Assembly: GCF_025998175.1 (NCBI RefSeq)
Contig: NZ_AP026695.1
Coordinates: 372,001 to 436,000 of the forward strand
DNA: 64,000 nt
From: Nitrosopumilus zosterae
GTDB lineage: Archaea; Thermoproteota; Nitrososphaeria; Nitrososphaerales; Nitrosopumilaceae
Direction: 5' to 3'
Below are positions 10,392-26,920 of the stretch, piece by piece. The translations under genes and the position numbers were made by a program. The stretch's first letter is position 1. Every line of letters starts with the position of its first letter. Under the pieces are notes generated by a model. It searched no databases and was not told the origin of the DNA. It saw only the letters and a list, made by a program, of their open reading frames with translations.

Positions 10392-10484
10392 TTCGAAATA
10401 TCTTTGACTCTGTTTAGACACCAAAAAAGAAATAACAAAATCGAGGTTCCAAGTGAAATTCTGGAACCCTTCAGGTAATGACAG

Positions 10485-10926: not shown

Positions 10927-10936
10927 TGGCATGCCA
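10927..10936 (+). promoter_or_regulatory. Palindromic box, copy 5 (TGGCATGCCA)
   Basis: A perfect palindrome, followed by CAAATAATTTTTTC as TATA-like stretch. It ends 46 bases before ATG 10983. The 10 bases 'TCAAATAATT' recur at the same place after copy 6. Confidence 0.65.
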
Positions 10937-10982
10937 CAATGTGGACGGCATTCTCAAATAATTTTTTCTCGTATACTAATTC

Positions 10983-11207: not shown

Positions 11208-11288
11208 AAGTTTGACAAGCCAATACGAGAAGACAGGATTGATTTTTCTTATTGAAATTTGTTTTAATACCTGTATTTCTCAGCAGAA

Positions 11289-12425
11289 ATGGTAATTTTG
11301 AAATATTTTCTCTTTATCATTTTCTCCATTTTCTCAATTTCATTTGCATTTGGTCAGTCAGATAATGAAATTGACCTTCTGTTAAAAAACGCTAATTTAT
11401 TTTTCATGGAGCAAAAATATGAAGAAGCAATAAATGAATATGATAAAATTCTAAAGATTGATCCTGAACATATTGATGCATTAAACCACAAAGGTGAAAT
11501 CAGGCTGCTTCAGGGAAAGTATGTAAAAGCACTCCAAAATTTTGAAAAAGTAATTAATTTGGATTCAAGTAATACTAAAGCCCAAAACGGATTGGGATAT
11601 GCACTTTACAACTTAGATCGTTATGATGCTGCATTAGACCAGTTTCATACCGTATTGGAAGTTGATAATCGAAACAATGATGCTTTGATAGGAAGTGGAC
11701 GGGTTTTGTTAAAATTGGAACAATACGATGGCGCCATTTTGTTTTTTGATCTTGTCCTTGAAAAAAAACCTGATGAATTAACTGCATTAATTTTGAAAGC
11801 ATATGCACTTGCAAATACAAACCAACACAACTCTGCATTGTCAATATATGATAAAGTCCTAGAAATTGATCCAGATAATGTAGATGCATTGATTGGAAAG
11901 GGAAACTACTATCTTGATTTGCAAGAATTTAAAACCTCGAAGATTCTTTATGAGGGGGCATTAGAAACTAATGCAGAAAATATTGATGCCTTGCTTGGAT
12001 TGGCAGAAATCAATCTTTTAGAAGGCAAACCAAAAAAATCAGGGCAGATTTACGACAAAATACTATCTCTTGATTCTGACAATGTGAAGGGATTGATTGG
12101 AAAGGGTCTATCTGTTATAGAATTAGACCAATCTGCTGAAGCCTTGAAATATTTTGATGAGGCTTTAGAAATTGATCCTGATAATCTTAGTGCTCTTGAT
12201 GGAAAAAATATTCTTCTTCAATCCAAAGTGGACACTTCCCTGGATTATATCTTGATAATTACAGTTGTAGGAAGCATCACGTCAATTGTTTCACTAATTC
12301 TTGTGATAACCAAGATCAAAGAAAATGCAGAATTACAAACTAAAATTGCCATTTCTGACGAACAAATTGAGGATCTAGTACTAAAAATGATGAAATATTC
12401 TGAGAAATCCAAAACTAAGGACTGA
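11289..12425 (+). CDS. Exported TPR-repeat protein with C-terminal anchor
   Basis: The 378-residue protein has a signal peptide (ILKYFLFIIFSIFSISFAFG), then about eight or nine 34-residue TPR units. These are marked by the recurring 'A(L/I)xxYDKxLExDPxNxxAL' pattern, for example 'YDKVLEIDPDNVDALIGKG'. A transmembrane helix lies near residue 320, followed by a charged helical tail. TPR arrays scaffold protein complexes. This one faces outward and could organise cell-surface proteins. It follows the box-driven microprotein at 10983. Confidence 0.88.
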   Translation: MVILKYFLFIIFSIFSISFAFGQSDNEIDLLLKNANLFFMEQKYEEAINEYDKILKIDPEHIDALNHKGEIRLLQGKYVKALQNFEKVINLDSSNTKAQNGLGYALYNLDRYDAALDQFHTVLEVDNRNNDALIGSGRVLLKLEQYDGAILFFDLVLEKKPDELTALILKAYALANTNQHNSALSIYDKVLEIDPDNVDALIGKGNYYLDLQEFKTSKILYEGALETNAENIDALLGLAEINLLEGKPKKSGQIYDKILSLDSDNVKGLIGKGLSVIELDQSAEALKYFDEALEIDPDNLSALDGKNILLQSKVDTSLDYILIITVVGSITSIVSLILVITKIKENAELQTKIAISDEQIEDLVLKMMKYSEKSKTKD

Positions 12426-12450
12426 TACATTCTGCTGGATTTTTCAAAAA

Positions 12451-12460
12451 AGGCATACCA
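12451..12460 (+). promoter_or_regulatory. Palindromic box, copy 6 (AGGCATACCA), S-layer operon
   Basis: Box AGGCATACCATAAAACC is followed by an AT-rich TATA-like stretch. No start codon lies at the usual distance. Instead, the base 47 after the box (12507) is the first base of the 5' arm of a long-range inverted repeat, so transcription probably starts there. Confidence 0.55.
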
Positions 12461-12506
12461 TAAAACCTACGCAATTAATATATCATTTTTTCACAAAATT
12501 TTTTTG

Positions 12507-12582
12507 GTAAAAACGTACATGATATCAAACAAAAATCTCAAACCCCATTGGGCCTTCCAAATGGTATCTGTTACGTTTTTAC
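12507..12582 (+). promoter_or_regulatory. 5' leader with long-range inverted repeat, S-layer operon
   Basis: GTAAAAACGTA at 12507-12517 is the exact reverse complement of TACGTTTTTAC at 12572-12582, 54 bases apart. The 3' arm ends 10 bases before the ATG at 12593, so pairing in RNA would mask the start region. The same design, with 52 bases between arms, precedes the gene at 26060. An operator read as DNA is the alternative. Confidence 0.6.
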
Positions 12583-12590
12583 ATTCATAA
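12519..12590 (+). CDS. 23-residue leader ORF inside the hairpin leader
   Basis: The frame ATG 12519 to TAA 12590 begins 'MISNKNLKPHWAFQ'. It spans the loop and the 3' arm and ends two bases before the ATG at 12593. Translating it would open the hairpin, as in leader-peptide control. The equivalent leader at 25987 has a 16-residue frame of unrelated sequence, so any role is positional. Confidence 0.3.
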   Translation: MISNKNLKPHWAFQMVSVTFLHS

Positions 12591-12592
12591 AA

Positions 12593-13933
12593 ATGGCTTT
12601 TATAAAATTGATACAGCCCTTTAGAAACATTAAAGTAATTTTAAAAAATAATTTTGATGTGAATGTGTATTTTCTTGTTATACTTACACTGTCATGTATT
12701 TTGATTCTTAATGTTGGAACATCTTACGCTGATGTAATTCCACCACGACATCAACAAAAAATTGGTATGTCCTCTGATGATGTTGTTTGTGATAGTGGTT
12801 TATTCAAAGTAATTAGAGAAAGAACAAATTCTGTTGCATGTGTAGAGCCTGAAAATGTGACTAAATTGGTTGGAATGGGTTGGGCAAAAAAAGTTGATGA
12901 CAAACAACTCTCTGACATGATTAACAGAAAGAGCATTCAGGTAGGAACTATCAACATATTGGAAAAAATTCCAGTTAGAACAAATGTTGGGAAACTTGCA
13001 TCAAGCACTTCTATTTCAGGTTATGACATTGTATTTGAGGTATGTGCTTCCACCTCAATATATGCACCAGATGTATTAGTTCGATCTGATAGTGAGTCAA
13101 AACGTTATGAGATGATTGAAACCATTACTGCAAACTCTTGTGTTCTTAGCGTTTCAAAAATCAAAGCAGCTGATGCAAATAGCATCACTGTCACATTGCT
13201 AAACAAAGGAGATATCTCACAAAAAGTTTTGTCACTTCAAAATGAACTTGATTCGTTAAAGCAACAACTTTTGGATGCAAAACAATCTTTCAAAAACCCA
13301 CAAGCATCTGATGCACAAATACAGGGAACAAAAATTGCTGATCTACGAAAACAAGTCAATGACAAACGCGAGGAATTACATCGATTATTATTTACCCTTC
13401 ATTCTCCACAAACAGATAAACAAAAATTAGAGAAATTCACGTTTTCTGGAAATGTAATTGAGGGAGAATCTGCATCTATTCTGTCTGTTATAGAATCTGT
13501 GCAAACTCCGGGACTATTTGATGCAATTTTTGAAGTATGTGCAGGAGATACGACTGTTAGATTACCTGTAGTCACAATTACTTCTGATAAACAAACCATC
13601 AAAATTAAACTAGGTGACAAAGTATCTGCCAATTCCTGCCAAATGACATCCGGCAAAATAGAGGCAGATGACAAATCTTCAATCAATATTACTCCTGCAG
13701 GTAACGCATCTTCTTCCAACAAGGTCACAGAACTTGAGATGTTGATTGGAAGTTTGACTGGACAAATGGTAAAGGAAAAACAAGTTCTCAAGGATCTAGT
13801 GCATGATTCTAACCGAGCCTCAAACTTTACAGAATTGTTTGATGCCCAAGTATCAAAGATTGTTGAACTAAGAAACCAGATCACCAATGCAAAAGCGGAA
13901 TTTAGCAAAATACTGTATCTTACGTATAACTGA
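12593..13933 (+). CDS. Exported coiled-coil protein with two 2-Cys domains
   Basis: ATG 12593 is chosen over TTG 12548 because it follows the hairpin arm and keeps the signal anchor (FLVILTLSCILILNVGTSYA). The 446-residue product has a module 'GMSSDDVVCDSGLFKVI' to 'VACVEPENVTKLVGMGWAK', shared with the protein at 21330. Two copies follow of a Cys-paired domain ('IVFEVCAS' to 'ANSCVLS', and 'AIFEVCAG' to 'ANSCQMT'), each followed by a coiled coil. It overlaps the next gene by one base (TGATG) and is first in the S-layer operon. It probably assists or anchors the surface layer. Confidence 0.75.
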   Translation: MAFIKLIQPFRNIKVILKNNFDVNVYFLVILTLSCILILNVGTSYADVIPPRHQQKIGMSSDDVVCDSGLFKVIRERTNSVACVEPENVTKLVGMGWAKKVDDKQLSDMINRKSIQVGTINILEKIPVRTNVGKLASSTSISGYDIVFEVCASTSIYAPDVLVRSDSESKRYEMIETITANSCVLSVSKIKAADANSITVTLLNKGDISQKVLSLQNELDSLKQQLLDAKQSFKNPQASDAQIQGTKIADLRKQVNDKREELHRLLFTLHSPQTDKQKLEKFTFSGNVIEGESASILSVIESVQTPGLFDAIFEVCAGDTTVRLPVVTITSDKQTIKIKLGDKVSANSCQMTSGKIEADDKSSINITPAGNASSSNKVTELEMLIGSLTGQMVKEKQVLKDLVHDSNRASNFTELFDAQVSKIVELRNQITNAKAEFSKILYLTYN

Positions 13934-14649
13934 TGAAAAAAATCCTCATTGGCCTTGCATTTGCTATATTGCTAACCACTAGCTACGTGCCGAACTCCTT
14001 TTCACAGGATGCTGTACCTCAGTGGATAAAACAGACTGCAGGGTGGTATTCGGACGGACTTGTATCTGAAAAGGAGTTCCTTGATGCAATTAGATTTTTG
14101 GTGCAAAACAAAATCATATTGCTAGATGAAACTGTATTAGATGATCCAACATTGCTTACAAATGATATTGTTGTATCAAAACCAAAAATACGTCAATGTG
14201 AAGTATTGTTCCAATCCTACAAAAACATTGGACCACTTCAATTCAAATCAAAATACTCTTACATTAATTATATTGATAGCTGTATGAAACTCTACAAAGA
14301 TCCGATATGGAGTTATCTGGGAAGTGACCGATACGACAAGTTGTCTGAAAGATTGACAGAACTAAATGAAAAACCACCAGAAAAAAAATTATCATATGAA
14401 CCATCTGCAAACATATTGGCCAAAACAAATCTTGGTCCTGAAAAATACAATGTAAAATTCAACATCTGTGCAGGTGATAAGGCAATTGATAAGGCCAAAG
14501 TTTTGGTAAAATCTCAGATCGAAGCAATTCAAGTTGGATCAAACAAGGATGTTCCTCCAAATGCATGCAGAACATATGAAACACTGATCTTTGCAAAAAA
14601 CCCTGATAACATTTTCATTGAAATTCTTGAACAGGTGCTTTTAGATTGA
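13933..14649 (+). CDS. Exported protein, PxWxK module plus 2-Cys domain
   Basis: The 238-residue protein has a signal peptide ending near 'SFSQDA' and the module 'VPQWIKQTAGWYSDGLVS', typical of thaumarchaeal exported proteins. A middle region with two Cys (RQCEVLF, DSCMKLY) follows, then a C-terminal 2-Cys domain ('KFNICAGD' to 'PNACRTY') of the type found in the gene before it. The start overlaps the previous stop, and its own stop overlaps the TTG of the S-layer gene. It is probably an accessory of the surface protein. Confidence 0.72.
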   Translation: MKKILIGLAFAILLTTSYVPNSFSQDAVPQWIKQTAGWYSDGLVSEKEFLDAIRFLVQNKIILLDETVLDDPTLLTNDIVVSKPKIRQCEVLFQSYKNIGPLQFKSKYSYINYIDSCMKLYKDPIWSYLGSDRYDKLSERLTELNEKPPEKKLSYEPSANILAKTNLGPEKYNVKFNICAGDKAIDKAKVLVKSQIEAIQVGSNKDVPPNACRTYETLIFAKNPDNIFIEILEQVLLD

Positions 14650-17600
14650 ATCTGTTATCTTATTCTCTGATTGTTATTTTCATTGCATTATCTAGTGGCA
14701 TTACAGTAATCGGATTTGATTTTTCAGAAGCTCAAACCCCTTCTAATCTAATTGTGTCTGCATCAAATTCAGTTTCTCAAAACAGATTTTCAGGACCTCA
14801 GGTAATTGAGGTTGTAATACGTGACAACAATATTGCTGATACTGGAAAAAGTGTTGGAGAGCCAGACGTTACTGTAAATGGCAAGGACTTGCGAATGGTT
14901 CAGGCAACTGACGGAAACTGGTATGGTTACTTTGCTGATAGAAGGCAGGCACAAATTGCAGATAGTACTGTTGGTTTGACTGGCAAAGGGCTTGATTTTG
15001 GTACTTTATGTGTGCGAAACTCATCAGTTCTGGGATTTTCAGTATCTGAGACTGATGGTGTAGCCATTCCTGTAAGTGGAACAGGAATAGGCGGTGCAAA
15101 CGGTTCAAATCCGCCTAATCCGATATCTCAGGACTGTGCTCTATCATCTCCTTTCACAAAAAATTCAATCAATGTAGTTAGACAGGCCAAGGCAGTAAAT
15201 CCTGGAACCACTAATGTAAAACTAGGTCAGATTGGATTGGCATCACAAGACTTGTGGCCATTTATTCAGCTTTATGATTTTTCACAGGGCGGTAATGTTG
15301 TAGTTCAATACAACAGAGGTGGTGGTCCTCAGCAGACAACACTGACATTTGATACTGCTGAAAAATTTATCAAGTTTGAACTTGATAGATCATCTTATCC
15401 AAGATCAGCTGATGTTAATTTGAAAATTACTGATATTAACTTGAACATTGATCCTACTGATGAGGACTCTTGGTCATTTGCAACTGTTGCATCGAGTCCA
15501 TCAACATATTATATGTTGTATGAAGAGTCTGGAAATATTGATGCAGATGGAACTGCCGGAGCTGTAAATCTAACTCCAACATTAAACTCTATGATGTTCA
15601 AAGACAATGGAATTTTGAAAATAAATCCAAATGTTCAGGGTCAGTCTAATGTAATTACAATCAGAGACAATGACGATTCTGAAACTAATGGTGATGGTGA
15701 AAAGGCAATATCTCTGATTTCTACAAATGGTGGCTCAATTGCTGCAGGAAAACAACCAATTACGATTACTGAGACAACACCAAACAGCGGAATCTTTGAT
15801 ACATATGATGCAAACAATGACTCTGTATTAATAACAACGCAAGATGCCCAGAGAGGAACCTCTGCATCTGTAGAATATAACAAAAAATCTCTTACTTTGT
15901 TGATTGGATTTGGAAAGGCAACCCTATCTCTTGATGAAAAGCTAAAGGGAACGGAATGGAACTCTGGAGAAGAAATGCCTGTTATTTTGATCGACTCTGA
16001 TGCAAATAAGAACAATTTGGAAAAAGAAGACCTTGACTTGTTTAATCCTTCATACAAGGCAATTCCTGCATTATCTACTGGAGACCCGTACACTCTTGGT
16101 GAGAGCGGAACTGACTCTAATACCAAAACTACTGCCTCCTTTCTGAATGGTTACACTTTAACTTCTACTGCTAATGGACAGTTTACATTATCTGGCACTG
16201 TATTGGGCTCTAGCTCCACAGTTGTTGTTGAAAAACACAGCGATAGGGCACGTATTGATCCTTCATCAAACACCGATTCTGATGCACTTGTGATAGACCT
16301 TAAAACCAATCTGACAAAACTACGTTCTTCAATTAACAACCCCTTTGATTCTGCACAGAATTTTAAGGGACTAAACATGTTCAATTACGATCTACGTTCT
16401 ATTGGTGATTTTAGTACTGTTGATATCTATCTGCTTGTTACTTCTTCATCTTCCATATTGGACTCCTCGGGAAATCCTTCTTCTGGAATAACTGCAATCA
16501 AAATTGCAACAGACACATCTGCTCAGAATTTGATAAATCTTAATTCTACAAGTCAAGTATCAAGTCCGCAAATACTTCACTCAAACTTGTTTTCAAGTTC
16601 CTTTTCGGGCAATGAAAAAATAGGCTTGATGTTTACATATCCAAACATACAAAATATTGGAACACAAACAAAACCTATTGTTGCAGACTTTTTCTCATAT
16701 GGTCTGAAAAATGACGGTTTGACCAAAACTGACAGGATTGCAAATCAAATAGTTCGTGTTGAGATGGAGGAACTTGCAAAAGACTCTGGAAAGTTTAGAG
16801 GTAGCCTAGAATATATCATGTTAAACCAGCTTAACATATTTGATTCAAAAACATACGAGTCTATAATCCCAATTGATGATGAGCCAATATTTCTTATGAT
16901 TGATGAGATGAAAGGAAATGAATCCCCAAGAATAAACTATAATGATCTGGGAACTGATGGAGTTTTCACAACCGTTTCTGATCAACAGGAAGTTTTGTCT
17001 CACATGGGGCTTGTTGTACTTTCTGTAAAATCTTTCAAACCTGGTGATACTGTGGGTGTGCAGCTAATTGACAAAGACCTAAACACAAACTCTGATCTTG
17101 TTGATGTTTACACTGTAGTTGATCCTACGAAATATCCAAACGATCCTGCAGCTGATACTGTTGGATTGCCAAATCTAGGATATAGAGATAATCAACCATT
17201 TGGACGATTACTGGAAATTACATTTGATGATGAGCGTTGGCTCAAATCAAACATTTCATATTCTGGCAAGTCATGCTCTACCATTTCTGGCAGTGATGGA
17301 TTAGCATCAACTGGATTCACTCTTGTTGAGACAGATGCAAAAACAGGCGAGTTTACGGGTAATTTCAAAATTCCTTCCCAATACTGTTCTAGGGCAAGTG
17401 GAGGTATCGTCAAAACAACCGCTGGTGTAGATATTGGTGCAGTTTATTATGACTTTAGAGGACAATCTAGTCAGGCAGCAGTTACTACCTCTAGTGCTAC
17501 TGTTGGAGCTACAAGCGGTATGGTTCAATTAGATAGAACAAGCTATCCTGTACCTATTGGTTCTGTTTCAGACTTTTATGAATCAGGAAAGTCTACCACC

Positions 17601-19748
17601 ACAAGACCTGACAATCGTTCAATCTTTCCTTATCATCTTACTGCAATTACAAAGAATGGTGATCCCAAAGCAATAGACTCTGGTGAACAAGTAGGACCAA
17701 AAGATACAGTTCTTACAATACAAATCCATGACGCAGATTATAATATGTCTCCAAACGGTGAGGATAAAATATCTAAAAACATTTCAGGTACCACAAACGG
17801 ACCTGTCAAAGTAATGATTACGCGAGGATCATCTACTCTTGTGTTGGCAACAGCTGGAGGTGAAGAAGCAAAGTCTGGAGTAATTACCGTTGGTAAGAAT
17901 GTAAAAAATGGTATTACACGAGAGATTGGACCTATTACTGAAACCTCTCCAAGCTCTGGAATTTTCCAATTTAACATTCCTGTAAGATATAGTGATGGAC
18001 CTTCATCAACAAAATGTCCTGCAACTATTGATTCTGGATTCAAAAAACTAGATGCAACAAAATCTGGTGTTCTAGCTAGATTTGATGCTGTACCATCTAC
18101 AGGAAACTATTGTATCCTACAAGGAGATATCATAACTGTAGAATATACGGACCTTGCAGATGCTTCCGGTTCTGCACGTACTGTAACTGATTCAGCAGCA
18201 TTTGATCTAAGAATGGGTTCTTTGCAATCTGACCAGCAATCTTACATCATTGGACGTGATGTAGTAATTACATTAATTGATCCTGACTTGAACTTTGATT
18301 CAAAGAAGGCAGAGACATATTCCCTTGATCTGCTAGAATGGGATTCAGATAATGCTCGAGTCACTATGGGTAATTTGGGTGGTGCTTCAACAAACAATGG
18401 CAAACTATTTGATCCTAGGCCTGTTGGATTACGTGAAACAGGTGATTCTACTGGAATCTTCCAAACTGTAATTGAGATACCCTCTGAAATCAACAACAAG
18501 CCTGTTGATAGGGGAGAAACAATCCAAATAACCTACACTGATTGGGGAACTCCTGGTTCTGATTTTGTTGGAAAAAATGATCAAAAAATAGAACTGAAAT
18601 TTAGCACATCAAACTTCCAATCCCAAATAACATTGGACAAAAAAGTATATTCCTGGACTGAAAAAGTCTACATCACAATTATTGCTCCTGATCATAACTT
18701 TGATGCAAATAAGATAGATGAGATAGGAAGCAAATCTACCAATGAAATTAAAATTTCTACACGTTCCAACAAACTATCTCAGTATAAGCTTGTAGAAACT
18801 GGAACTAATTCTGGAATATTTGTAGGCGAAGTCATCCTTACAGGTTTCAAACATGATGCAGATGGTGATCCACGAACTGGTGATATTGATGGTAAGGATA
18901 CATCACCAAGAACCGAACCAAAAAGTAACGGAGGACCAACAAATGGATTCTTGGAATCAAAAAATGATGATGGTCTTACAGTCTCATTCCAATTTACTGA
19001 AAGGGATGCCACTCTTGGTTCTGCACTAATTCGCTGGAATATAGGAACAGTTGAATGGGTTCAAGAAGCAACGTCTGCAAATGGGTATGGTATTGTCCGT
19101 GTAATCGATCCTGACATGAACCTAAATCCTGAACTTGTGAATACCTTCTCAATTGATGTTTGGTCTGATTCTGATCTTGGTGGCATTGACCTAACAGTTA
19201 CCGAGACAGGTCAGGCAACTGGAATATTTGAAGGAGAGGTCAAGTTTACCAGCAATGATCAGTCATCTGGTCACCGATTGCGTGTAAATGATGGTGATTA
19301 TGTCACTGCAAAATATGAGGACAACACTTTGCCAAAACCATATACAACTGCTGATGAGCTAAAAATTTCCGCTAGTACTATTGTGGGCCCTGTTGTTGCT
19401 CCACTAGAACGTGTTCCTGTAGGAAATGCTAGAATTGTTGATTCGTTTGGTAATATTGTTAACCAAGTAAAAGTTGATCAGCAAATTCAGATAGCATCAG
19501 ATATTGCAAACAACAACATTGCACAACAACCATTCACATATCTTGTACAAATCCAAGATTCAAACAATACCGTAATCTCATTGTCTTGGATTACAGGCAG
19601 TCTTAAAACAAATCAGAATTTCTCCCCCGCTGTATCTTGGATTCCACAAAGTCCAGGCCAATACAATGCAACAGTATTTGTTTGGAACAGTCTTTCAAAT
19701 CCAATTGCATTAAGCCCTACAGCCTCATTCACAATTGATGTTTCTTAA
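14646..19748 (+). CDS. S-layer-type surface protein
   Basis: The 1700-residue protein starts at TTG 14646, within the stop codon of the upstream gene, and has a signal peptide (SLIVIFIALSSGITVIG). The rest is a chain of Asp- and Thr-rich beta-sandwich repeats, marked by recurring 'V.ITDxDxNxDP' and 'ETGxxTGIFxGE' motifs (for example 'LIDPDLNFDSKKAETY' and 'ETGDSTGIFQTV'). Composition and size match thaumarchaeal S-layer proteins (about 1700 residues), which form the acidic paracrystalline coat. It might be a paralogue rather than the main coat protein. The palindrome after the stop may end the transcript. Confidence 0.82.
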   Translation: MNLLSYSLIVIFIALSSGITVIGFDFSEAQTPSNLIVSASNSVSQNRFSGPQVIEVVIRDNNIADTGKSVGEPDVTVNGKDLRMVQATDGNWYGYFADRRQAQIADSTVGLTGKGLDFGTLCVRNSSVLGFSVSETDGVAIPVSGTGIGGANGSNPPNPISQDCALSSPFTKNSINVVRQAKAVNPGTTNVKLGQIGLASQDLWPFIQLYDFSQGGNVVVQYNRGGGPQQTTLTFDTAEKFIKFELDRSSYPRSADVNLKITDINLNIDPTDEDSWSFATVASSPSTYYMLYEESGNIDADGTAGAVNLTPTLNSMMFKDNGILKINPNVQGQSNVITIRDNDDSETNGDGEKAISLISTNGGSIAAGKQPITITETTPNSGIFDTYDANNDSVLITTQDAQRGTSASVEYNKKSLTLLIGFGKATLSLDEKLKGTEWNSGEEMPVILIDSDANKNNLEKEDLDLFNPSYKAIPALSTGDPYTLGESGTDSNTKTTASFLNGYTLTSTANGQFTLSGTVLGSSSTVVVEKHSDRARIDPSSNTDSDALVIDLKTNLTKLRSSINNPFDSAQNFKGLNMFNYDLRSIGDFSTVDIYLLVTSSSSILDSSGNPSSGITAIKIATDTSAQNLINLNSTSQVSSPQILHSNLFSSSFSGNEKIGLMFTYPNIQNIGTQTKPIVADFFSYGLKNDGLTKTDRIANQIVRVEMEELAKDSGKFRGSLEYIMLNQLNIFDSKTYESIIPIDDEPIFLMIDEMKGNESPRINYNDLGTDGVFTTVSDQQEVLSHMGLVVLSVKSFKPGDTVGVQLIDKDLNTNSDLVDVYTVVDPTKYPNDPAADTVGLPNLGYRDNQPFGRLLEITFDDERWLKSNISYSGKSCSTISGSDGLASTGFTLVETDAKTGEFTGNFKIPSQYCSRASGGIVKTTAGVDIGAVYYDFRGQSSQAAVTTSSATVGATSGMVQLDRTSYPVPIGSVSDFYESGKSTTTRPDNRSIFPYHLTAITKNGDPKAIDSGEQVGPKDTVLTIQIHDADYNMSPNGEDKISKNISGTTNGPVKVMITRGSSTLVLATAGGEEAKSGVITVGKNVKNGITREIGPITETSPSSGIFQFNIPVRYSDGPSSTKCPATIDSGFKKLDATKSGVLARFDAVPSTGNYCILQGDIITVEYTDLADASGSARTVTDSAAFDLRMGSLQSDQQSYIIGRDVVITLIDPDLNFDSKKAETYSLDLLEWDSDNARVTMGNLGGASTNNGKLFDPRPVGLRETGDSTGIFQTVIEIPSEINNKPVDRGETIQITYTDWGTPGSDFVGKNDQKIELKFSTSNFQSQITLDKKVYSWTEKVYITIIAPDHNFDANKIDEIGSKSTNEIKISTRSNKLSQYKLVETGTNSGIFVGEVILTGFKHDADGDPRTGDIDGKDTSPRTEPKSNGGPTNGFLESKNDDGLTVSFQFTERDATLGSALIRWNIGTVEWVQEATSANGYGIVRVIDPDMNLNPELVNTFSIDVWSDSDLGGIDLTVTETGQATGIFEGEVKFTSNDQSSGHRLRVNDGDYVTAKYEDNTLPKPYTTADELKISASTIVGPVVAPLERVPVGNARIVDSFGNIVNQVKVDQQIQIASDIANNNIAQQPFTYLVQIQDSNNTVISLSWITGSLKTNQNFSPAVSWIPQSPGQYNATVFVWNSLSNPIALSPTASFTIDVS

Positions 19749-19749
19749 T

Positions 19750-19767
19750 TTGTAAGAATTCTTACAA
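19750..19767 (+). terminator. 18-base palindrome after the S-layer gene
   Basis: TTGTAAGAATTCTTACAA is a perfect palindrome beginning two bases after the stop codon. As RNA it gives a 7-base-pair stem with an AAUU loop. No strong U-tract follows, so it could protect the 3' end of a highly expressed mRNA rather than terminate. Confidence 0.45.
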
Positions 19768-19794
19768 TTATGCATGAACATGAGTATATGCGTT

Positions 19795-19910
19795 AATTTT
19801 TAACCTCAAAATAGTGCCCTAGTTTCTGTGGAGTTGAACCCAATTGCGGTGTTGTAGTTTGATCCCATCTCATTTGTTACACAAAAATGGTTAAGCCTCT
19901 AAGAATTCAA
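19795..19910 (+). repeat. Dispersed repeat, copy A
   Basis: It shares TTTTTAACCTCAAAATAGTG with copy B, GTTGAACCCAATTGCGGTGT with copy C, and the tail GGTTAAGCCTCTAAGAATTC with copy B. It fills the gap between the S-layer gene and the convergent DM13 gene, where no coding frame is credible. Confidence 0.5.
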
Positions 19911-19960
19911 ACCAATACTTGCAAAATGATTATTTGTCTATAATCCAAAATTTCCTACAA

Positions 19961-20476
19961 TTATCTCAAAGACAATCCAGCACTTCCAAACAAGACACTG
20001 AAGGTCTTACACCAAATCAAAACTTTGTTGTATTTTTGCAGATCAGTTCCTTCAGGAATATCATAATTTTGATTTCCTTTGTTTGCTTTGAGTTTTCCTA
20101 GATTAACAATGTCTGATGCATTATCATCTGTTGACAAGTACACATACAAATCAGGACCATTAGTTGATTCAAAGTTCTCTAGTCTGAGTATGTTGTTTTT
20201 GTCTTCTAATGGAATTGTATAAGCATCTCCTTGTGCGTCATGAATTCCATCACCAACACCGATGAATATACCTGCATAAGACATTGGAACAGTCTCATCC
20301 ATCATATTCTCATCCATCATATTCTCATCCATCATAGTCTCATCTTTTGGCTGAAGAACAACATTAGTTGGTAATGCTTCATCAATTGTTGATTCCAAAA
20401 AATAAGGTGATACAGCATATGCAGATATTCCTCCGACAATTGCAACTGCAATGATTATTGGTATGGATTTATTCAT
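19961..20476 (-). CDS. Exported DM13-domain protein
   Basis: The 171-residue protein has a signal anchor, a short low-complexity stretch of three 'MMDEN/T' units (15-base DNA repeats at about 20297-20341), and a DM13 domain: 'FESTNGPDLYVYLS', 'LGKLKANKGNQNYDIP', 'VLIWCKTFSVLFG'. The conserved Cys of the family is present in 'IWCKTF'. DM13 domains are proposed redox or electron-transfer modules of secreted proteins. The gene stands alone and converges on the S-layer operon. Confidence 0.85.
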   Translation of the reverse strand: MNKSIPIIIAVAIVGGISAYAVSPYFLESTIDEALPTNVVLQPKDETMMDENMMDENMMDETVPMSYAGIFIGVGDGIHDAQGDAYTIPLEDKNNILRLENFESTNGPDLYVYLSTDDNASDIVNLGKLKANKGNQNYDIPEGTDLQKYNKVLIWCKTFSVLFGSAGLSLR

Positions 20477-20580
20477 GAATGTATTTTATGATTTTAGTAT
20501 AAAGCGTCTTTTCCAAATTAACTCCAGATTCAAAATCAATTTGGGAAATTATTAATATATTCAAAAACTAACTTGATTTA

Positions 20581-21051
20581 ATGACTTATGCATGTCCAAA
20601 AGGATTTTCCTCTGTGACTCCTCATCTTGTAATCAAAGACTGTGCAAATGCACTTGATTTTTACAAAAAAGCACTTGGAGCACAAGAGATCTATCGAAGC
20701 AAGATGCCTGATGGAAGAATAATGCATGCAATGATTCAGATAGGCAACTCTTTTGTCATGATGGCCGATGAATTTCCAGACATGGGGGCAGTAGGTCCCA
20801 ATACGCTTGGCGGAACATCAACTTCACTTCACATTTACACTGATGATGCAGACAAACTTTTCAAACAGGCAACTGATGCAGGAGCTACACCAATCATGCC
20901 TATTGCTGATATGTTTTGGGGTGATAGATATGGTCAAATTCAAGATCCATATGGACATCGCTGGGCAATTGCAACACACACCAAGGATGTTTCTCCCGAA
21001 GAGATGGAAAAGGCTGCAAAAGAAATGTTTTCTAAAGGTAACTCCTGTTAA
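20581..21051 (+). CDS. VOC-family (glyoxalase/PhnB-like) protein
   Basis: The 156-residue protein has the two-half vicinal-oxygen-chelate fold: 'TPHLVIKDCANALDFYKKAL' at the start, 'HAMIQIGNSFVMMADE', 'SLHIYTDDADKLFKQATDAG', and 'DRYGQIQDPYGHRWAIATH' at the end. This is the PhnB/'DUF1428-like' style of metal-binding VOC protein. The substrate is unknown. It is a single gene. Confidence 0.88.
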   Translation: MTYACPKGFSSVTPHLVIKDCANALDFYKKALGAQEIYRSKMPDGRIMHAMIQIGNSFVMMADEFPDMGAVGPNTLGGTSTSLHIYTDDADKLFKQATDAGATPIMPIADMFWGDRYGQIQDPYGHRWAIATHTKDVSPEEMEKAAKEMFSKGNSC

Positions 21052-21149
21052 AATCTGATTTTGTATCTCGATAACAGTTCAGGCCTTTATTGATTCGATA
21101 CAAAACATCAGAAGCACTTTTCAATGGCTGTACTTAATTTTCATACAAT

Positions 21150-21329
21150 ATGGTGATATTATATGCAATTATTGGAGCTGTGATTACTATTGGAGTTATC
21201 TTACTCCGTTATTATCTCGAAGAACGAAAAAAGAAACCTCGAAATGACAAGTTTTGTTATAATTGCAATCTAAATTTTCCAAATAACTATAATGTGTGCC
21301 CAAAATGTGGAATAAAATTTGGTAATTAA
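21150..21329 (+). CDS. 59-residue membrane zinc-ribbon protein
   Basis: The frame from ATG 21150 gives one transmembrane helix (AIIGAVITIGVILLRYYL), a basic linker and a zinc ribbon 'FCYNCNLNF...VCPKCGIKF'. Its stop lies directly before the ATG of the next gene, so it heads the four-gene chain 21150-23417. The function is unknown. The fold call rests on the two CxxC knuckles. Confidence 0.7.
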   Translation: MVILYAIIGAVITIGVILLRYYLEERKKKPRNDKFCYNCNLNFPNNYNVCPKCGIKFGN

Positions 21330-22217
21330 ATGAAAACTAGGCTCTTGATAATTATTGGAATTCTGGGTACTTTTAGCTTAATTAATCATCATCTAGCTTA
21401 TGCTGATGAACTTCAGCCCCTTCCATCTGACTTTAGAGATCTTACAGAACATGAAATTGATATCCGTCTTCTTTATGATGTAGAGGATATCTATCCAATT
21501 CCGTCTGCACCTCTTAAACAATTATCTGCTGGAGTATCCCTAAACAACATACAATGTAAACCAAATTTGCATCTGATCATCAAATACAATGATACTCCAG
21601 CATGTGTAAAATCAAAAACAGCTCAAAAATTAACAGATAAACAATCTTGGTCTCCAAGTGAAAAATTATGGAAAAAACTTGAAAATCAAATCTATTCCAT
21701 AACTGATGAATCATTTTGTCCAAAACGATGCATCAATATAGAATCTGTTGAAACGATGCAACAAGCAAATGAAAATACTAGTCTCAGAATTAATTTGCCA
21801 AGTTACATTCCAAAAAACTATGAATTTTTCAAATATTATCCTAATGAGAACGCACTAAACATTCAAATTTCTTCCAATCCCTTGACAGAAAATACAACAT
21901 GGGGTGACTTCTATTTGATGGATCATGGTATTCTTCTAACGTATATTGACTATCCCGTTACATCAGATGGTAGAACTCAAACAGCATATTGGGCAAAAAC
22001 TCAAGATGCACAAAACATATCTCGACAAGACAACGAACCAATTTTTGTAAAGGAACGAAACGTAACCTTTGACGAAGATCTTGGTATTTTGTTTCTGGGC
22101 TCACCCTCTGAAGCACAGTTTAACCTCAACGATGACATCTCAATAATAATTACAGGGTATGTTCCACAAGAAGAGATAATCAAGATTGCGCGTTCTTTTT
22201 TTGGAATTGATAAATGA
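21330..22217 (+). CDS. Exported protein with thaumarchaeal 'CxPxTAxKL' module
   Basis: The 295-residue protein has a signal peptide (MKTRLLIIIGILGTF). It then carries 'PLKQLSAGVSLNNIQCKPNL' and 'TPACVKSKTAQKLTDKQSW', the same module as in the first gene of the S-layer operon ('VACVEPENVTKL'). The remaining beta-rich region of about 170 residues is unrecognised. It ends 'GYVPQEEIIKIARSFFG', similar to lipoprotein-like carrier domains. The stop overlaps the next start (ATGA). Confidence 0.65.
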   Translation: MKTRLLIIIGILGTFSLINHHLAYADELQPLPSDFRDLTEHEIDIRLLYDVEDIYPIPSAPLKQLSAGVSLNNIQCKPNLHLIIKYNDTPACVKSKTAQKLTDKQSWSPSEKLWKKLENQIYSITDESFCPKRCINIESVETMQQANENTSLRINLPSYIPKNYEFFKYYPNENALNIQISSNPLTENTTWGDFYLMDHGILLTYIDYPVTSDGRTQTAYWAKTQDAQNISRQDNEPIFVKERNVTFDEDLGILFLGSPSEAQFNLNDDISIIITGYVPQEEIIKIARSFFGIDK

Positions 22218-23056
22218 CGAAAACTAGACTTTTGATAATTATTTGCATAACTGTTTTTGTCGTATCTAGTCTTATGGTGATTGTGTACACATATCCTGAA
22301 TTATTTGGTCTGCCAAGACCATATTCTAAAATCGGTGAATATGATGGGGCTGTTTCAGAAACGGCATTAATGATCAATGAACAATGTTTGAACAAAGATC
22401 AGTTCAGTGACTATCCATTTACTAAAACATCAAACGGCCATTATTACATTGACAATGTGATATGTGAGCGAATCAATGTAGAGCAAGGGGGATGTCTGGA
22501 ACCGTTTAGCAAAGGATTCCCTGATGAAACATGCCAGAATCGTGTAACTTTTGATCAGCCTTATGGTGAAACGGGTCCATATTTTAACAAAGAATTTTGT
22601 AATCACGTAAAATTTTGGGAACCTGCACTCACTGATACTGTTGAAAACAAACGAGTAAACTCTGAATGGCTTCACATATGCACAATTCGTGGCCTGATAG
22701 CAGATACTCCGTTGCACGACATTTCTCAAATAATGAATTATCAGGGCAAAAACTGCAATGTGTACAGATTTGGCAGTGTTGATTGTTTTGCTATTTCGTT
22801 TGACAAATGTATTCCTGCAAAAATAGAGAATACTCATTTTACTGTGGAAGGTGATCCAATTACAGTCATTGCCATGATAAAATCTGATTCTTGCTCTATA
22901 GACGTATTTCATGATGCAACACAAGATAGATTTGGAAAACAAGAAATTACAAAATATTCTTGTCCTGAAATTAAATTAGATGATAACTATCTCCACATGG
23001 TTTCATGTGTAGATGAATTTGATGAAGGAGAATATGGATTTATAATTAGAAAATGA
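22214..23056 (+). CDS. Membrane-anchored Cys-rich exported protein
   Basis: The 280-residue protein has an N-terminal anchor nearly identical to that of the preceding gene (MTKTRLLIIICITVFVV), which suggests a duplicated 5' end. The extracytoplasmic part has about 14 Cys, probably in disulfides. The family is not recognised. It overlaps both neighbours by four bases, so the three genes are translationally coupled. Confidence 0.6.
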   Translation: MTKTRLLIIICITVFVVSSLMVIVYTYPELFGLPRPYSKIGEYDGAVSETALMINEQCLNKDQFSDYPFTKTSNGHYYIDNVICERINVEQGGCLEPFSKGFPDETCQNRVTFDQPYGETGPYFNKEFCNHVKFWEPALTDTVENKRVNSEWLHICTIRGLIADTPLHDISQIMNYQGKNCNVYRFGSVDCFAISFDKCIPAKIENTHFTVEGDPITVIAMIKSDSCSIDVFHDATQDRFGKQEITKYSCPEIKLDDNYLHMVSCVDEFDEGEYGFIIRK

Positions 23057-23379
23057 AAACAGACTCTAGAATTATAATTTCAATTGACAAGCAATTCTAT
23101 AGTGACGATGATGAGATTCGCATTCATGTGTGGTTTAATCATGCGTTTTACTCTCCTGCCACATTGACTGTTCTGAGTCCAACTGGCAGAAAGATAGATT
23201 CGTCTGGACTAAAGACGGATGTGAATGTTACTGAAACGTTTGCATTTACCTGTGGTGGACCTTTTATGTTTGAGAATGGATATCATGTGATTAGAGTAGA
23301 ATGTGAAAATGTAGTAACTGAAGCAATGTTTGAGTATTACAATTCTAAAAATAGATTTGGTTCGGGGTTTGGAAAATGA
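23053..23379 (+). CDS. Ig-like beta-sandwich protein
   Basis: The 108-residue protein reads 'IIISIDKQFYSDDDEIRIHV', 'TLTVLSPTGRKIDSS' and 'NGYHVIRVECENVVTEAMFEY', the strand pattern of a macroglobulin- or Ig-like domain seen inside larger thaumarchaeal surface proteins. It lacks a signal peptide. It starts by overlap with the preceding gene, so it may be a detached domain of a once-longer protein. Confidence 0.55.
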   Translation: MKTDSRIIISIDKQFYSDDDEIRIHVWFNHAFYSPATLTVLSPTGRKIDSSGLKTDVNVTETFAFTCGGPFMFENGYHVIRVECENVVTEAMFEYYNSKNRFGSGFGK

Positions 23380-23417
23380 AAACTAGATTTTTTGTGCCTG
23401 TCTGCGTCTCATTTTAA
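23376..23417 (+). pseudogene. Truncated fourth gene of the coupled chain
   Basis: ATGA overlap with the preceding stop is followed by 'MKTRFFVPVCVSF' and a stop. This is the same N-terminus as the genes at 21330 and 22214, cut after 13 codons. The stop lies within dispersed-repeat copy D, so repeat insertion or recombination may have removed the rest. Confidence 0.4.
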
Positions 23418-23430
23418 CCCCAAAATGGTC
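23402..23430 (+). repeat. Dispersed repeat, copy D (partial)
   Basis: CTGCGTCTCATTTTAACCCC plus AAAATGGT matches the first 29 bases of copy C (TGCGTCTATTTTTAACCCC). Only the left end is present. Confidence 0.45.
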
Positions 23431-24463
23431 AAGCTAATTCTGCTGGAATTGCTATTTTTCTTTTAGCAAACTTGACTGCAACCCATCCCATTATTGCACC
23501 TGGAATGCTCATTATTCCTAAAATCATTCCTAGTGTATCTGCAAAATCTGGAAGCAACTCATAACCTGAAACTCCATTAAATATGTGAAATTGAATATAT
23601 GCCATTCCGATTAGTGGCATACTAAAAACCAAAAACATTGAACCAATAATTGCACCTGCGAGTTCTTCTCCAAATCTTTTAATTTTAATTTTACTTGAAA
23701 TTAATGCATCACTTACTATGCCTAAAATTACTGGCAATGCAAACCAAGGCAAAAATCCCCACAAAAATTCTGCAGGAATGATATTTGATGTAATGTTTAG
23801 TATGATAAAAACAACTGTTACAAGAGTCGCTCCACCAAACCTTCCAATTGTTTTTGCTGAGGACCAAAAAATAAGCACGCTAAAAAATGGTAGAGCGCTT
23901 GCAGCAATTACAGCTGCAATATATGGGTCAGGATCCAAATCTATCGTATCTCCAGTTGAAATCGGTAATGTAAATTGAAAGATAAACCCAATTGTGATAA
24001 ACCATAACACTCCAAATGCAAGAATCAGAGATGGCTTTACAACTCTAAAATTCTTGTGAATTAATCTTGCTAATCCAATTACTATTCCCACTGATTGAAT
24101 TAAAATTCCTGTAATTAATGTAAGATGAGTTGGGCTAAGTAATCCATCTGTTCCAAACATTTCGTGCCAATAGTAATCAGATGGTCCTGCAATTATCTGA
24201 AACACACATCCAATGATTATCAGTTTTAACCCCAATGAAAATGATTTTTTTAAAATCTCTCTTTTTTTGAGCATTACAGCTACTGACATTATAGCTGCAA
24301 TCAACCCTATTCCAACTCCGATATATAGTACTCCATGAGGCGGTGTGAAAAACGTCTCTGGCTCTCCTAACTGGTGACTTGTAATATCCCAACTGCCTCC
24401 CCATGTCTGCAAAATTGATCCGAGAAGTGTTATCATCAATATGGCAACAATGAATTTTGTCAT
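23429..24463 (-). CDS. Polytopic membrane protein with conserved His motifs
   Basis: The 344-residue protein has eight or nine predicted transmembrane segments. The N-terminal half carries 'GSWDITSHQLGEPETFFTPP' directly followed by 'HGVLYIG', and later 'GPSDYYWHEMFGTDGLLSPT' followed by 'HLTL'. Several His sit at membrane edges, the pattern of a metal- or haem-binding integral membrane protein. A family with similar 'WDxxxH ... SPPH' motifs exists in actinobacteria as uncharacterised membrane proteins. The function is unknown. Confidence 0.65.
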   Translation of the reverse strand: MTKFIVAILMITLLGSILQTWGGSWDITSHQLGEPETFFTPPHGVLYIGVGIGLIAAIMSVAVMLKKREILKKSFSLGLKLIIIGCVFQIIAGPSDYYWHEMFGTDGLLSPTHLTLITGILIQSVGIVIGLARLIHKNFRVVKPSLILAFGVLWFITIGFIFQFTLPISTGDTIDLDPDPYIAAVIAASALPFFSVLIFWSSAKTIGRFGGATLVTVVFIILNITSNIIPAEFLWGFLPWFALPVILGIVSDALISSKIKIKRFGEELAGAIIGSMFLVFSMPLIGMAYIQFHIFNGVSGYELLPDFADTLGMILGIMSIPGAIMGWVAVKFAKRKIAIPAELA

Positions 24464-24517
24464 CAGGTATTACTTTATTATGAATTAATTTCTGATCTTT
24501 ATGCCTTTCTACATCCA

Positions 24518-24607
24518 CTTTTATCCTCAAAATAGTGGAAGTCCACATGAAGTTGAATCGAATCTTTTTCTTTTACCATAAAAGGTTCAAGCCTCTAAGG
24601 ATTCATC
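24518..24607 (+). repeat. Dispersed repeat, copy B
   Basis: TTTTATCCTCAAAATAGTGG, then GAAGTTGAATCG, then GGTTCAAGCCTCTAAGGATT. It shares both ends with copy A and the middle with copy C. It lies upstream of the minus-strand membrane protein gene, with no credible coding frame. Confidence 0.5.
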
Positions 24608-24670
24608 ATTGATTTGTCTTGTGGCTATTGCCTAGTCTAAAATACAATCAAAAGATTTTCTGTATTGTGA

Positions 24671-24784
24671 TTACTTGTCATTGACCATGTATTGCAGAGT
24701 AACAATCTGGTGTCTTGCTTGGTTTAACTCGTCTCTCTGCTTGATGATTTTCTCTGTCAGTTCTGTGACCTTCTGTCTAAAGCT
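24671..24784 (-). pseudogene. Remnant of a coiled-coil protein C-terminus
   Basis: The minus frame to TAA 24671-24673 reads 'RQKVTELTEKIIKQRDELNQ' then 'ARHQIVTLQYMVNDK', a heptad-like coiled coil. It has no start codon or upstream body. At about 24785 it abuts the 3' end of a different, oppositely oriented frame, so a rearrangement is likely. Confidence 0.4.
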
Positions 24785-24788
24785 AGGA

Positions 24789-24962
24789 ATGGATAAAGTA
24801 CAACCTACATGGACTCCTGATGGAAAAACTCACTATGCACTAGTGTTTGTGGATCCGAAAAAATCTGCAGGTTCTTGGGTATTCTCTGGAAATGCATTGG
24901 CAATCCATTCAATGAATGAGACACCATTCACGGTAAGCTACGCAGTAGTGCTTACTGAATAA
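24789..24962 (+). pseudogene. C-terminal fragment of a beta-rich protein
   Basis: ATG 24789 leads 57 residues, 'WTPDGKTHYALVFVDPKKSA' and 'WVFSGNALAIHSMNETPF'. These look like the last strands of a larger beta-sheet protein. Upstream in the same frame the sequence is antisense to the coiled-coil fragment, so the body of the gene is gone. A tiny intact gene remains possible. Confidence 0.35.
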
Positions 24963-24980
24963 TTCTCTTTTTTATTTTCT

Positions 24981-24990
24981 TGGCATGCCA
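24981..24990 (+). promoter_or_regulatory. Palindromic box, copy 7 (TGGCATGCCA)
   Basis: A perfect palindrome in TGGCATGCCACAACCTAGTG, followed by ACTATTCTCAAATAATTTT. It ends 45 bases before ATG 25036. Confidence 0.65.
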
Positions 24991-25035
24991 CAACCTAGTG
25001 ACTATTCTCAAATAATTTTCATCTTATAGTATATC

Positions 25036-25197
25036 ATGCAAGTTGTAGTTTCGTGTGAATGCGTCCCAAAATCAAACCTGTTACCTACAGTGGTTGGAAG
25101 TGAGGCCAAAAACCCTCTTCCCATCAGCAAAGGGAAATATTCTGAATCTATGGGATTATCGTGTCTTGTTGCAGATGATTTTGAAGATTTTGCTTAA
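25036..25197 (+). CDS. Small MQ-family protein, leaderless
   Basis: The 53-residue product starts 'MQVVVSCECVPKSN' and contains 'GSEAKNPLPI' and 'GLSCLVADDFEDFA'. It is homologous to the 61-residue product at 5084 and is read in a frame different from the longer overlapping frame. The ATG lies 45 bases after a palindromic box. An exported protein with a strong AAGAGGAGGTG Shine-Dalgarno site follows 28 bases on. Function is unknown. Confidence 0.6.
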   Translation: MQVVVSCECVPKSNLLPTVVGSEAKNPLPISKGKYSESMGLSCLVADDFEDFA

Positions 25198-25225
25198 TCA
25201 AATAAGAGGAGGTGAGTATAAAATT

Positions 25226-25795
25226 ATGAAAGTAAAACTAACGGTATTTGTTGCAGTTCTTACAGCATCTCTGTTGCTGGCTGGCCCAAGTCATGCATTT
25301 GCAGCCTCATCACCATCATCCAGAATATTGGCAATTGTTCCAACAAGTGTTGAGAACATTCATTCTGTGATATTTGAGGTGTGTGCAAGTGATACAGTAA
25401 ACATGAGAGCGCCTGAGGTAATCATTAATTCTTTGGCAGAGGTAAAAAATGTCAAATTGAGTAAGGTTATTGCAAAGGGCACATGTACTACTAATGCAGC
25501 TCAGCTAAGTGCATTTGATCCTGCAAATATCAAGATTAAGGTAATAGACAAATCAAAGCTTAACACAATGGTTGATCAGGCTGAAAAGAACCTAATCAAG
25601 ATAAAATCAGACATATCAAAAACTAATGCAGAGTTACAAGGTTTGTTAGATAACATACCTGGAAACACTCCTACGAAGAAAGATGACATAGCCAAGATCA
25701 ATGACTTGACATCAAAACTATCCGAACTTAGAATGCAACTCAAAGATGTTAGAAGTGAATATCATAGACTACTATACATCCTGAAAGGAAATTAG
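25226..25795 (+). CDS. Exported protein with one 2-Cys domain and coiled coil
   Basis: ATG 25226 follows GGAGGTG and begins a signal peptide (MKVKLTVFVAVLTASLLLAG) ending 'AFAASS'. The 189-residue product has one 2-Cys domain ('VIFEVCASD' to 'KGTCTTNA') and a C-terminal coiled coil ending 'SEYHRLLYIL'. That ending is close to the repeats of the S-layer operon protein at 12593 ('EELHRLLFTL'). It is a single-domain relative of that protein, co-transcribed with the MQ microprotein. Confidence 0.75.
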   Translation: MKVKLTVFVAVLTASLLLAGPSHAFAASSPSSRILAIVPTSVENIHSVIFEVCASDTVNMRAPEVIINSLAEVKNVKLSKVIAKGTCTTNAAQLSAFDPANIKIKVIDKSKLNTMVDQAEKNLIKIKSDISKTNAELQGLLDNIPGNTPTKKDDIAKINDLTSKLSELRMQLKDVRSEYHRLLYILKGN

Positions 25796-25916
25796 TAGTA
25801 TATTTTTTATTTTTTTATTTTTTGCTGTCATTACAACAGATGGTATGATCTTGATAATGTTTTCAGGATTCACACTTAACAATTGAACCCATTGATCATC
25901 TTGAAATAACTCTTAA

Positions 25917-25926
25917 TGGCATACCA
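25917..25926 (+). promoter_or_regulatory. Palindromic box, copy 8 (TGGCATACCA)
   Basis: TGGCATACCACAAC is followed by ACATAATATTTTCTG as TATA-like stretch. The base 47 downstream is 25973, at the foot of the inverted repeat, matching the S-layer operon promoter. Confidence 0.55.
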
Positions 25927-25974
25927 CAACAAATTATCAATCATTACATAATATTTTCTGATACAACATTTGGC

Positions 25975-26046
25975 TAAAACGTATTGATGTATAACATGCC
26001 TTTGGAGATACCTTCGAATCATGGCAGTAACATCTGATACGTTTTA
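25975..26046 (+). promoter_or_regulatory. 5' leader with long-range inverted repeat
   Basis: TAAAACGTAT at 25975-25984 pairs exactly with ATACGTTTTA at 26037-26046. The arms, their 52-base spacing, the CATCTG preceding the 3' arm and the 13-base gap to the ATG closely mirror the S-layer operon leader at 12507-12582, although the loops differ. Confidence 0.6.
25987..26037 (+). CDS. 16-residue leader ORF
   Basis: ATG 25987 to TGA 26037 encodes a peptide starting 'MYNMPLEIPSNHG' and ends on the first base of the 3' hairpin arm. It is equivalent in position to the frame at 12519. Expression is inferred only. Confidence 0.25.
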   Translation: MYNMPLEIPSNHGSNI

Positions 26047-26059
26047 CCAATGAACTGAA

Positions 26060-26422
26060 ATGAAAAAAATAAAATTTGCAAATAACATACTTGGGCTGTC
26101 ATTAATCACCCTTTTGTCCTTTTCAATATTATCCACATCTGTATTTGGAGAAACACCAAAAAACCCAAATGTGCATTCGATAAAAATTCAATACGTAACT
26201 AAAGTTTCAGACAACTCTTACTATGTTAATTTTAAAGCATGTATCGGAAAAAATCATGTTAACACGCCAACATTTGCAGTTACTACTGATACTAATTCTA
26301 AATTTATCACATATGACAAGATTCACTTGGCAAATACCTGCAAGACCTACGATGCTTCTGTCAATGCAAAACATACATCCAGTATTTCTATACAAATGAT
26401 AGATACTGTAGTAAAAAAATAA
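26060..26422 (+). CDS. Stand-alone exported 2-Cys domain protein
   Basis: The 120-residue protein has a signal peptide (GLSLITLLSFSILSTSVFG) and a single copy of the 2-Cys domain: 'YYVNFKACIGKNHVNTPTFA' to 'LANTCKTYD', then 'SISIQMID'. It shares its promoter box and hairpin leader with the S-layer operon, whose first two proteins carry the same domain. It is probably a surface-layer accessory. Its ligand is unknown. Confidence 0.72.
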   Translation: MKKIKFANNILGLSLITLLSFSILSTSVFGETPKNPNVHSIKIQYVTKVSDNSYYVNFKACIGKNHVNTPTFAVTTDTNSKFITYDKIHLANTCKTYDASVNAKHTSSISIQMIDTVVKK

Positions 26423-26805: not shown

Positions 26806-26920
26806 TGCCGGGGGCGAGTTTCGAACTCGCGACCTCCAGATTATGAGTATTGCCTTAGTTGGAGAACCGTTAGAGATTACCAAGCGAACTGGCACTCTAA
26901 CCAGGCTGAGCTACCCCGGC
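26806..26920 (-). tRNA. tRNA-Met (CAT), elongator, with intron before the anticodon
   Basis: On the minus strand the acceptor GCCGGGG pairs with CCCCGGC plus A73. The T arm is GCGAG-TTCGAAA-CTCGC, and the D arm is GCTC...GAGT. The 3' anticodon half reads CTCATAATCTGG, giving anticodon CAT. The 5' half stops at CCAG and is separated from it by about 40 bases. Removing them restores CCAGA-CTCATAA-TCTGG. The intron thus lies in the 5' strand of the anticodon stem, not at the canonical 37/38 site. Exact splice points are uncertain by one or two bases. Confidence 0.9.

Follow-up and report, generated by a model that had tools for sequence, protein, structure and literature searches.

Only a handful of cis-regulatory RNAs have been confirmed or predicted in archaea (PMC7247131). 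In Lactobacillus acidophilus, the untranslated leader of the slpA mRNA, which encodes an S-layer protein, contains a large stem-loop that has been proposed to protect the mRNA (PMC6482533). In ammonia-oxidizing archaea, the S-layer concentrates ammonium at the cell surface (PMC11153153). Here, we analyze two hairpin leaders in a 64-kb stretch of the Nitrosopumilus zosterae genome (the window; all coordinates are positions in it unless stated otherwise). The 12.5-kb leader precedes the S-layer operon, and the 26-kb leader precedes the gene of a small exported protein. The latter belongs to a predicted family of structured RNAs. In the open PMC literature set, we found neither a description of this element nor any cis-regulatory RNA described for ammonia-oxidizing archaea.

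A first-pass annotation, made from the letters of the window, had reported pairing arms at 12507-12582 and 25975-26046, and both pairs were found there. The arm pattern AAAACGTA...TACGTTTT with 40-65 bases between the arms occurs at exactly two sites in the 1.775-Mb genome, which are the two leaders, and the reversed-control pattern has no site in it. Just two further sites, with unrelated loops, were found in the 249 other genomes of the family. A literal search for the arms across the 250 family genomes returned no homologue, since the basal stem of the RNA family changes in sequence. As RNA, the leaders fold with -23.2 and -26.3 kcal/mol (z = -4.7 and -4.8), and none of 200 shuffles was as good. 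In the 12.5-kb leader, a second helix (GATATCA/TGGTATC at 12521-12527/12562-12568) extends the arms inward, and in the 26-kb leader the helices GATGT/ACATC and TGCC/GGCA follow beyond the arms. Hence, both leaders are continuous long hairpins and not a pair of arms around an open loop.

The case for a conserved RNA comes from relatives of the 26-kb leader. In five congeners, the orthologue of the 120-aa gene at 26060 is directly preceded by the same kind of leader. Among these close orthologues (alignment A1), helix P2 reads GATGT/ACATC, GAGGT/GCCTC, or GAGAC/GTCTC and helix P3 reads TGCC/GGCA or TATC/GATA, and pairing is kept in each form. Both sides changed at six pairs, with 8 such cells compared to 2.7 in shuffles, and all slid controls were lower. 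The outer arm ACGTA/TACGT is invariant in this set, where covariation is confined to the inner helices, so the arms alone are uninformative on covariation. A covariance model built from the window's leader and the five congeneric leaders (R1) found a second sequence class (class B) with the basal stem GUGCG...CGCAC and the same core. A model trained on class B only (R2) recovers class A in six genomes, the window's own included, always at the leader position and with E-values, rough as for all covariance models here, of 2.7e-8 to 3e-5. The 26-kb leader, which is absent from the training set of R2, matches with E = 2.7e-5 in its own genome; a class A member in genome G015 reaches only E = 0.015. 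Against a further model, R3, of which it is a training member, the 26-kb leader scores 56 bits (own-genome E 1.6e-12).

The family comprises 27 aligned members from 23 Nitrosopumilaceae genomes in five genera. Each element forms a 63-68-nt stem that is interrupted by a bulged A and a 4x1 internal loop and capped by the conserved apical loop CCYUCG. From the outside inward, the consensus consists of a 5-bp basal stem, P2, an internal loop, AC or GC, and the bulged A. It continues with a 4-bp helix (UAUC/GAUA or UGUC/GACA), 4 nt opposite 1 nt, and GGAU or GAU, and ends in an 8-nt stretch centered on CCYUCG and closed by AUCC. The best-conserved part is the loop core GGATxCCYUCGxATCC, including the single-stranded apex. 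The first-pass annotation had called the loops of the two leaders unrelated and had suggested that only pairing matters. The loops are indeed unrelated to each other (z = 0.9), but that of the 26-kb leader is the strongly conserved core of the family, which contradicts the suggestion.

In the alignment of all 27 members (A5), 90.6% of the cells are paired, and both sides changed in 17 of the 22 pairs (89 such cells; shuffles gave 28.3 and slid controls no more than 21). Covariation is also present independently within class B alone, and between the classes the basal stem differs at most pairs while pairing is retained. Compensatory changes, proposed beforehand as the check on the arms, are therefore present in the inner helices and in the basal stems of class A versus class B, but not in the ACGTA/TACGT arms of close orthologues. 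RNAalifold predicts essentially the same structure from the 27 members. In the reliable helices, G-U outnumbers A-C on the transcribed strand (20 versus 6; binomial 0.005, indicative only, as the members are related), which points to an RNA read in the + direction. On these comparisons, we regard a conserved structured RNA as close to certain.

Table 1 Features of the two leaders and their genes in the window
Feature	Coordinates	Strand	Remarks
Promoter box GGCATACCA	12452..12460	+	55 bases before 12507
TATA-like box TTAATATAT	12475..12483	+	
12.5-kb leader, 5′-terminal hairpin of the S-layer operon	12507..12582	+	without the conserved core
Operon gene 1, exported 446-aa protein	12593..13933	+	WING-49 domain and 2-Cys repeats
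Operon gene 2, exported 238-aa protein	13933..14649	+	overlaps both neighbors
Operon gene 3, S-layer protein, 1700 aa	14646..19748	+	PDB 8c8k, 1499.7 bits over residues 5-1700
Promoter box GGCATACCACA	25918..25928	+	55 bases before the predicted start of the 26-kb leader
26-kb leader, 5′-terminal hairpin, member of the predicted RNA family	25973..26048	+	R3 match 25977-26044
Basal helix P1, 5′ arm TAAAACGTAT	25975..25984	+	
P2, 5′ strand GATGT	25986..25990	+	orthologues GAGGT or GAGAC, other strand changed to match
P3, 5′ strand AC-A-TGCC	25994..26000	+	A bulged
Apical core GAT-ACCTTCGA-ATC	26007..26020	+	conserved family-wide
P3, 3′ strand GGCA-GT	26023..26028	+	
P2, 3′ strand ACATC	26030..26034	+	orthologues GCCTC or GTCTC
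Basal helix P1, 3′ arm ATACGTTTTA	26037..26046	+	
Exported 120-aa 2-Cys-type protein, led by the 26-kb hairpin	26060..26422	+	five congeners have orthologues with this leader

Matches were confined to Nitrosopumilaceae in two searched samples, 400 genomes of the order and 400 of the class; searches over more than 40 genomes ran with strict filters, so weak members may be missed. The exact core pattern occurs at ten places among 84,980 bacterial and archaeal species, all of them in Nitrosopumilus or in metagenome-assembled genomes of Nitrosopumilaceae, and all ten are matches of the full model. No contig of IMG/VR matches the core pattern. Up to three copies are found per genome (three in G156). 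Scans of the window and of nine loci against Rfam 15 gave only tRNAs above the gathering threshold and nothing over the elements. The predicted RNA family is thus absent from the RNA catalogue searched and is newly defined here.

The position of the transcript start was derived from the promoters. Class A and some members of class B carry a GGCATRCC[AG]CA box roughly 55 bases upstream of the predicted start, and in other members of class B this upstream region contains the palindrome GTTGATTTNATTCNGAATNAAATCAA. Across members, a TATA-like stretch is found at positions of about -31 to -24 relative to the element. The same box precedes the ATG of leaderless, mostly small genes by 54 or 55 bases at 21 distinct sites across all fetched loci, in a scan that covered +40 to +74 only. 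The window contains four of these sites, with a spacing of 55 bases at three and of 54 at the fourth. This spacing calibrates the start to about 1 base and places it where each hairpin begins, at 12507 and 25973. Hence, the earlier placement of the 5′ arm at the predicted transcript start holds, and we strongly infer that transcription begins at the first base of the hairpin.

The variant GGCATRCCACA has seven sites in the genome, five of which are within 19.4 kb around the S-layer operon (6535-25928), and this clustering suggests a local regulon. Co-regulation of the two window genes via the common GGCATRCC box and leader is plausible. The four leaderless genes of the window that begin 54-55 bases past GGCATRCCACA encode 40-74 aa (10239-10391, 10983-11207, and 25036-25197 on the + strand, 6368-6490 on the - strand). 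For three of them, relatives that share patterns such as LVExxPVKxG and GLSWIF occur in other loci; the small leaderless genes tested gave no Pfam or NCBIfam match above the cut-off. Directly before the TATA box, where the GGCATRCC box would otherwise be, the palindrome GTTGATTTNATTCNGAATNAAATCAA is found both at the RNA element (loci L095, L096, L097, L099-L101, L105, L106, L118, and L119) and at S-layer-linked 2-Cys genes (L015, L019, L021, and L022). It is likely an operator.

Ten of the 27 members directly precede the ATG of genes for exported proteins, namely five 120-aa 2-Cys genes, three copies of the gene of an exported coiled-coil protein, and two TPR protein genes. A sixth 120-aa 2-Cys orthologue, in G083, likewise carries the leader. 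The TPR genes begin 12-13 nt past the element in G090 and G113, and a homologue of the TPR protein adjoins the S-layer operon of the window. Two members are located about 105 nt upstream of a gene. One of these genes is a full S-layer gene (G139, locus L147), whose 1704-aa product is 75.6% identical to that of the window and which starts 104 nt past the element. A further member (G015; L117, 1501-1567, - strand) precedes only a degenerate short open reading frame (ORF). The start of this ORF resembles the signal peptides of the 2-Cys and coiled-coil proteins and the leader is intact; the gene behind it may have decayed.

The remaining 14 members lack a plausible same-strand gene in their vicinity. 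These copies are inferred to be free small RNAs transcribed from their own promoter. Downstream of one of them (L103/L150) come eight consecutive T and then tRNA genes. In L101, L118, and L119, about 60 bases past the stand-alone hairpin are also alike (AATCATT..TTTAGTCATAAAA..), and the RNA of these genomes may reach beyond the hairpin.

The 12.5-kb promoter and leader are colinear with the 26-kb unit (score 97 versus 54.5 ± 6.0, z = 7.1, 0 of 1000 shuffles). The box, the start position, and the outer arms are common to both units, as is P2, in which a change is compensated, whereas their apical parts are dissimilar. Against R1, the 12.5-kb leader scores 19.5 bits (E 0.024), which comes from the outer stems only. 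The orthologues of its first gene (L006-L028) have no such leader in front, and a search for related loci with the 446-aa protein found nothing. No orthologous leader was found for it. The earlier proposal of a 5′ leader RNA structure is strongly supported by covariation for the 26-kb leader; for the 12.5-kb leader, the support comes only from folding and from similarity to the 26-kb unit. At best, the 12.5-kb leader is a derived paralogue, that is, a paralogous promoter-leader in which the stem was kept and the core was lost or replaced; the likeness of the two units may also have arisen through convergence. Its hairpin may serve chiefly for 5′ stability or for shaping translation. We also considered a switch between alternative stems and rejected it because all listed suboptimal structures retain the outer stems.

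The operon behind this leader is as first described, with three overlapping genes that start at 12593, 13933, and 14646 and an S-layer protein as the third product. In the 446-aa protein, the NCBIfam WING-49 domain covers residues 51-99 (E 2.5e-17). A paralogue, 59% identical, is encoded in the same genome at C1:309124-310440, and no hairpin leader is found there. Downstream of the 26-kb unit, a tRNA match at 26806-26920 on the - strand (48.4 bits) spans 115 bases, which exceeds the length of a plain tRNA, and this tRNA probably has an intron.

We propose that, in Nitrosopumilaceae, this conserved structured RNA of about 70 nt would constitute the very 5′ end of transcripts. Its core, consisting of the bulged A, the 4x1 internal loop, and the CCYUCG loop, would be recognized by a trans-acting factor, probably a protein. 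Together, the factor and the 5′ stem would determine how stable abundant surface-protein messages are and how they are translated, and the stand-alone copies would compete for the factor as decoy small RNAs. We assign this explanation as a whole a probability of roughly 0.55. Taken singly, action of the leader in cis through a bound factor is a tentative assumption with slightly less than an even chance, and the decoy role of the free copies is doubtful. The hairpin at the first transcribed base suits 5′-end protection, and a core that is unpaired yet conserved points to a specific partner. The free copies speak against a riboswitch or a stability cap as the sole role. A lineage-specific post-transcriptional regulon, in which the hairpin acts in cis on S-layer and surface messages and in trans as free RNAs that compete for one RNA-binding protein and so link envelope production in marine ammonia oxidizers, would be a speculative extension.

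A generic 5′ stability hairpin, in which the first-base stem would protect abundant surface-protein messages and the core would have no specific partner, is unlikely. It would fit the stem that starts at the predicted first base, the strong folding of both window leaders, the 12.5-kb leader that retains stems only, and the analogy with the slpA leader (PMC6482533), but it leaves the cross-genus conservation of the unpaired apical core and the stand-alone copies unexplained. The latter would be accounted for if the element were primarily a stand-alone, base-pairing small RNA gene and the leaders were secondary captures beside surface genes. The 14 copies without a downstream gene, among them the one with the T run, and the conserved apical CCYUCG loop, which could pair, agree with this. 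The recurrence of the leaders on at least four families of exported genes, most of them 10-20 nt before the ATG, makes it improbable. A riboswitch, whose core would bind a small molecule or ion tied to ammonium supply or envelope state and whose hairpin would gate the nearby start codon, is a poor candidate as well. A long stem with conserved unpaired positions close before start codons, followed by S-layer and surface genes, is what such a switch would look like. However, half of the copies (the same 14) have no plausible gene to control, so the element is not always upstream of a gene. Moreover, the core consists of one short hairpin and has no junction, no platform for alternative pairing was seen, and the 12.5-kb leader has no core.

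The first-pass annotation had also offered a paired operator on the DNA, with a dimeric regulator on both arms and the DNA looped. In favor of it, the arms of the two leaders are near-identical, and close orthologues do not vary in the ACGTA/TACGT part, but the distance between the arms varies freely (elements are 63-68 nt long) instead of being constant and in phase with the helix, and the G-U excess on one strand breaks the symmetry of the two strands. Compensatory changes throughout the internal helices, the conserved single-stranded apical core, and the fact that a better candidate for an operator lies elsewhere, upstream of the TATA box, further disfavor this option, which we consider very improbable. 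Least of all do we expect a palindromic mobile repeat (MITE- or REP-like) that lies in promoters by chance, because the inverted ends, the varying genomic place, and the three copies in G156 are outweighed by only 1-3 copies per genome, a fixed distance to promoter elements, and covarying internal helices. A mimic of the anti-Shine-Dalgarno sequence (GGAUCACCUCC-like) was judged by eye and rejected, as the match is partial and the leaders have no consistent complement.

Several observations weigh against the proposed factor-binding 5′ RNA with decoy copies. The element is patchy (23 of 250 family genomes), and several complete congeners, including G088, have no confident match, which argues against an essential role. 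The conserved core is missing from the 12.5-kb leader, which gives no + strand match to R3 even with filters off, and blastn of this leader in 94 congeners returned no homologue, only short, AT-rich, chance-like matches. The stand-alone status is assigned solely from the absence of a nearby ORF in ORF calling, which very small proteins could escape. Finally, A5 was aligned to the model, so its pair counts favor the model; the MAFFT alignments A1 and A4 agree nonetheless.

The element opens the regulation of S-layer messages, in at least one species and with related surface genes in others, to direct tests, and the S-layer is a biogeochemically important structure. It is compact, lies at the transcript end, and allows clear predictions for compensated mutants. 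The slpA leader resembles it as a large stem-loop ahead of an S-layer message but is bacterial. To our knowledge, the slpA leader has no described homologue family on other genes, no stand-alone copies, and no known conserved apical core. Archaeal H/ACA guide RNAs are single hairpins of about 60-75 nt that occur as independent transcripts. The present element differs from them in lacking a suitable guide pocket, a k-turn, and a constant 3′ ACA box; a k-turn or H/ACA guide RNA was dropped as a candidate because the positions in question pair and covary as Watson-Crick pairs and the 3′ flanks vary. In decoy RNAs of the CsrB/RsmZ type, which are bacterial, the binding sites match those in mRNA leaders, and each decoy carries many sites in short GGA hairpins. 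Similarly, one element in both leaders and stand-alone RNAs would permit the titration of a binding protein, although in our case both the protein and its titration are hypothetical. The archaeal ribosomal-protein leaders (S15, eL15, L4) are likewise covarying, cis-acting leader structures and are thought to bind proteins, but they belong to ribosomal-protein genes of euryarchaeal lineages (PMC7247131). The element described here has no Rfam match, is associated with surface-protein genes, and occurs in many free-standing copies.

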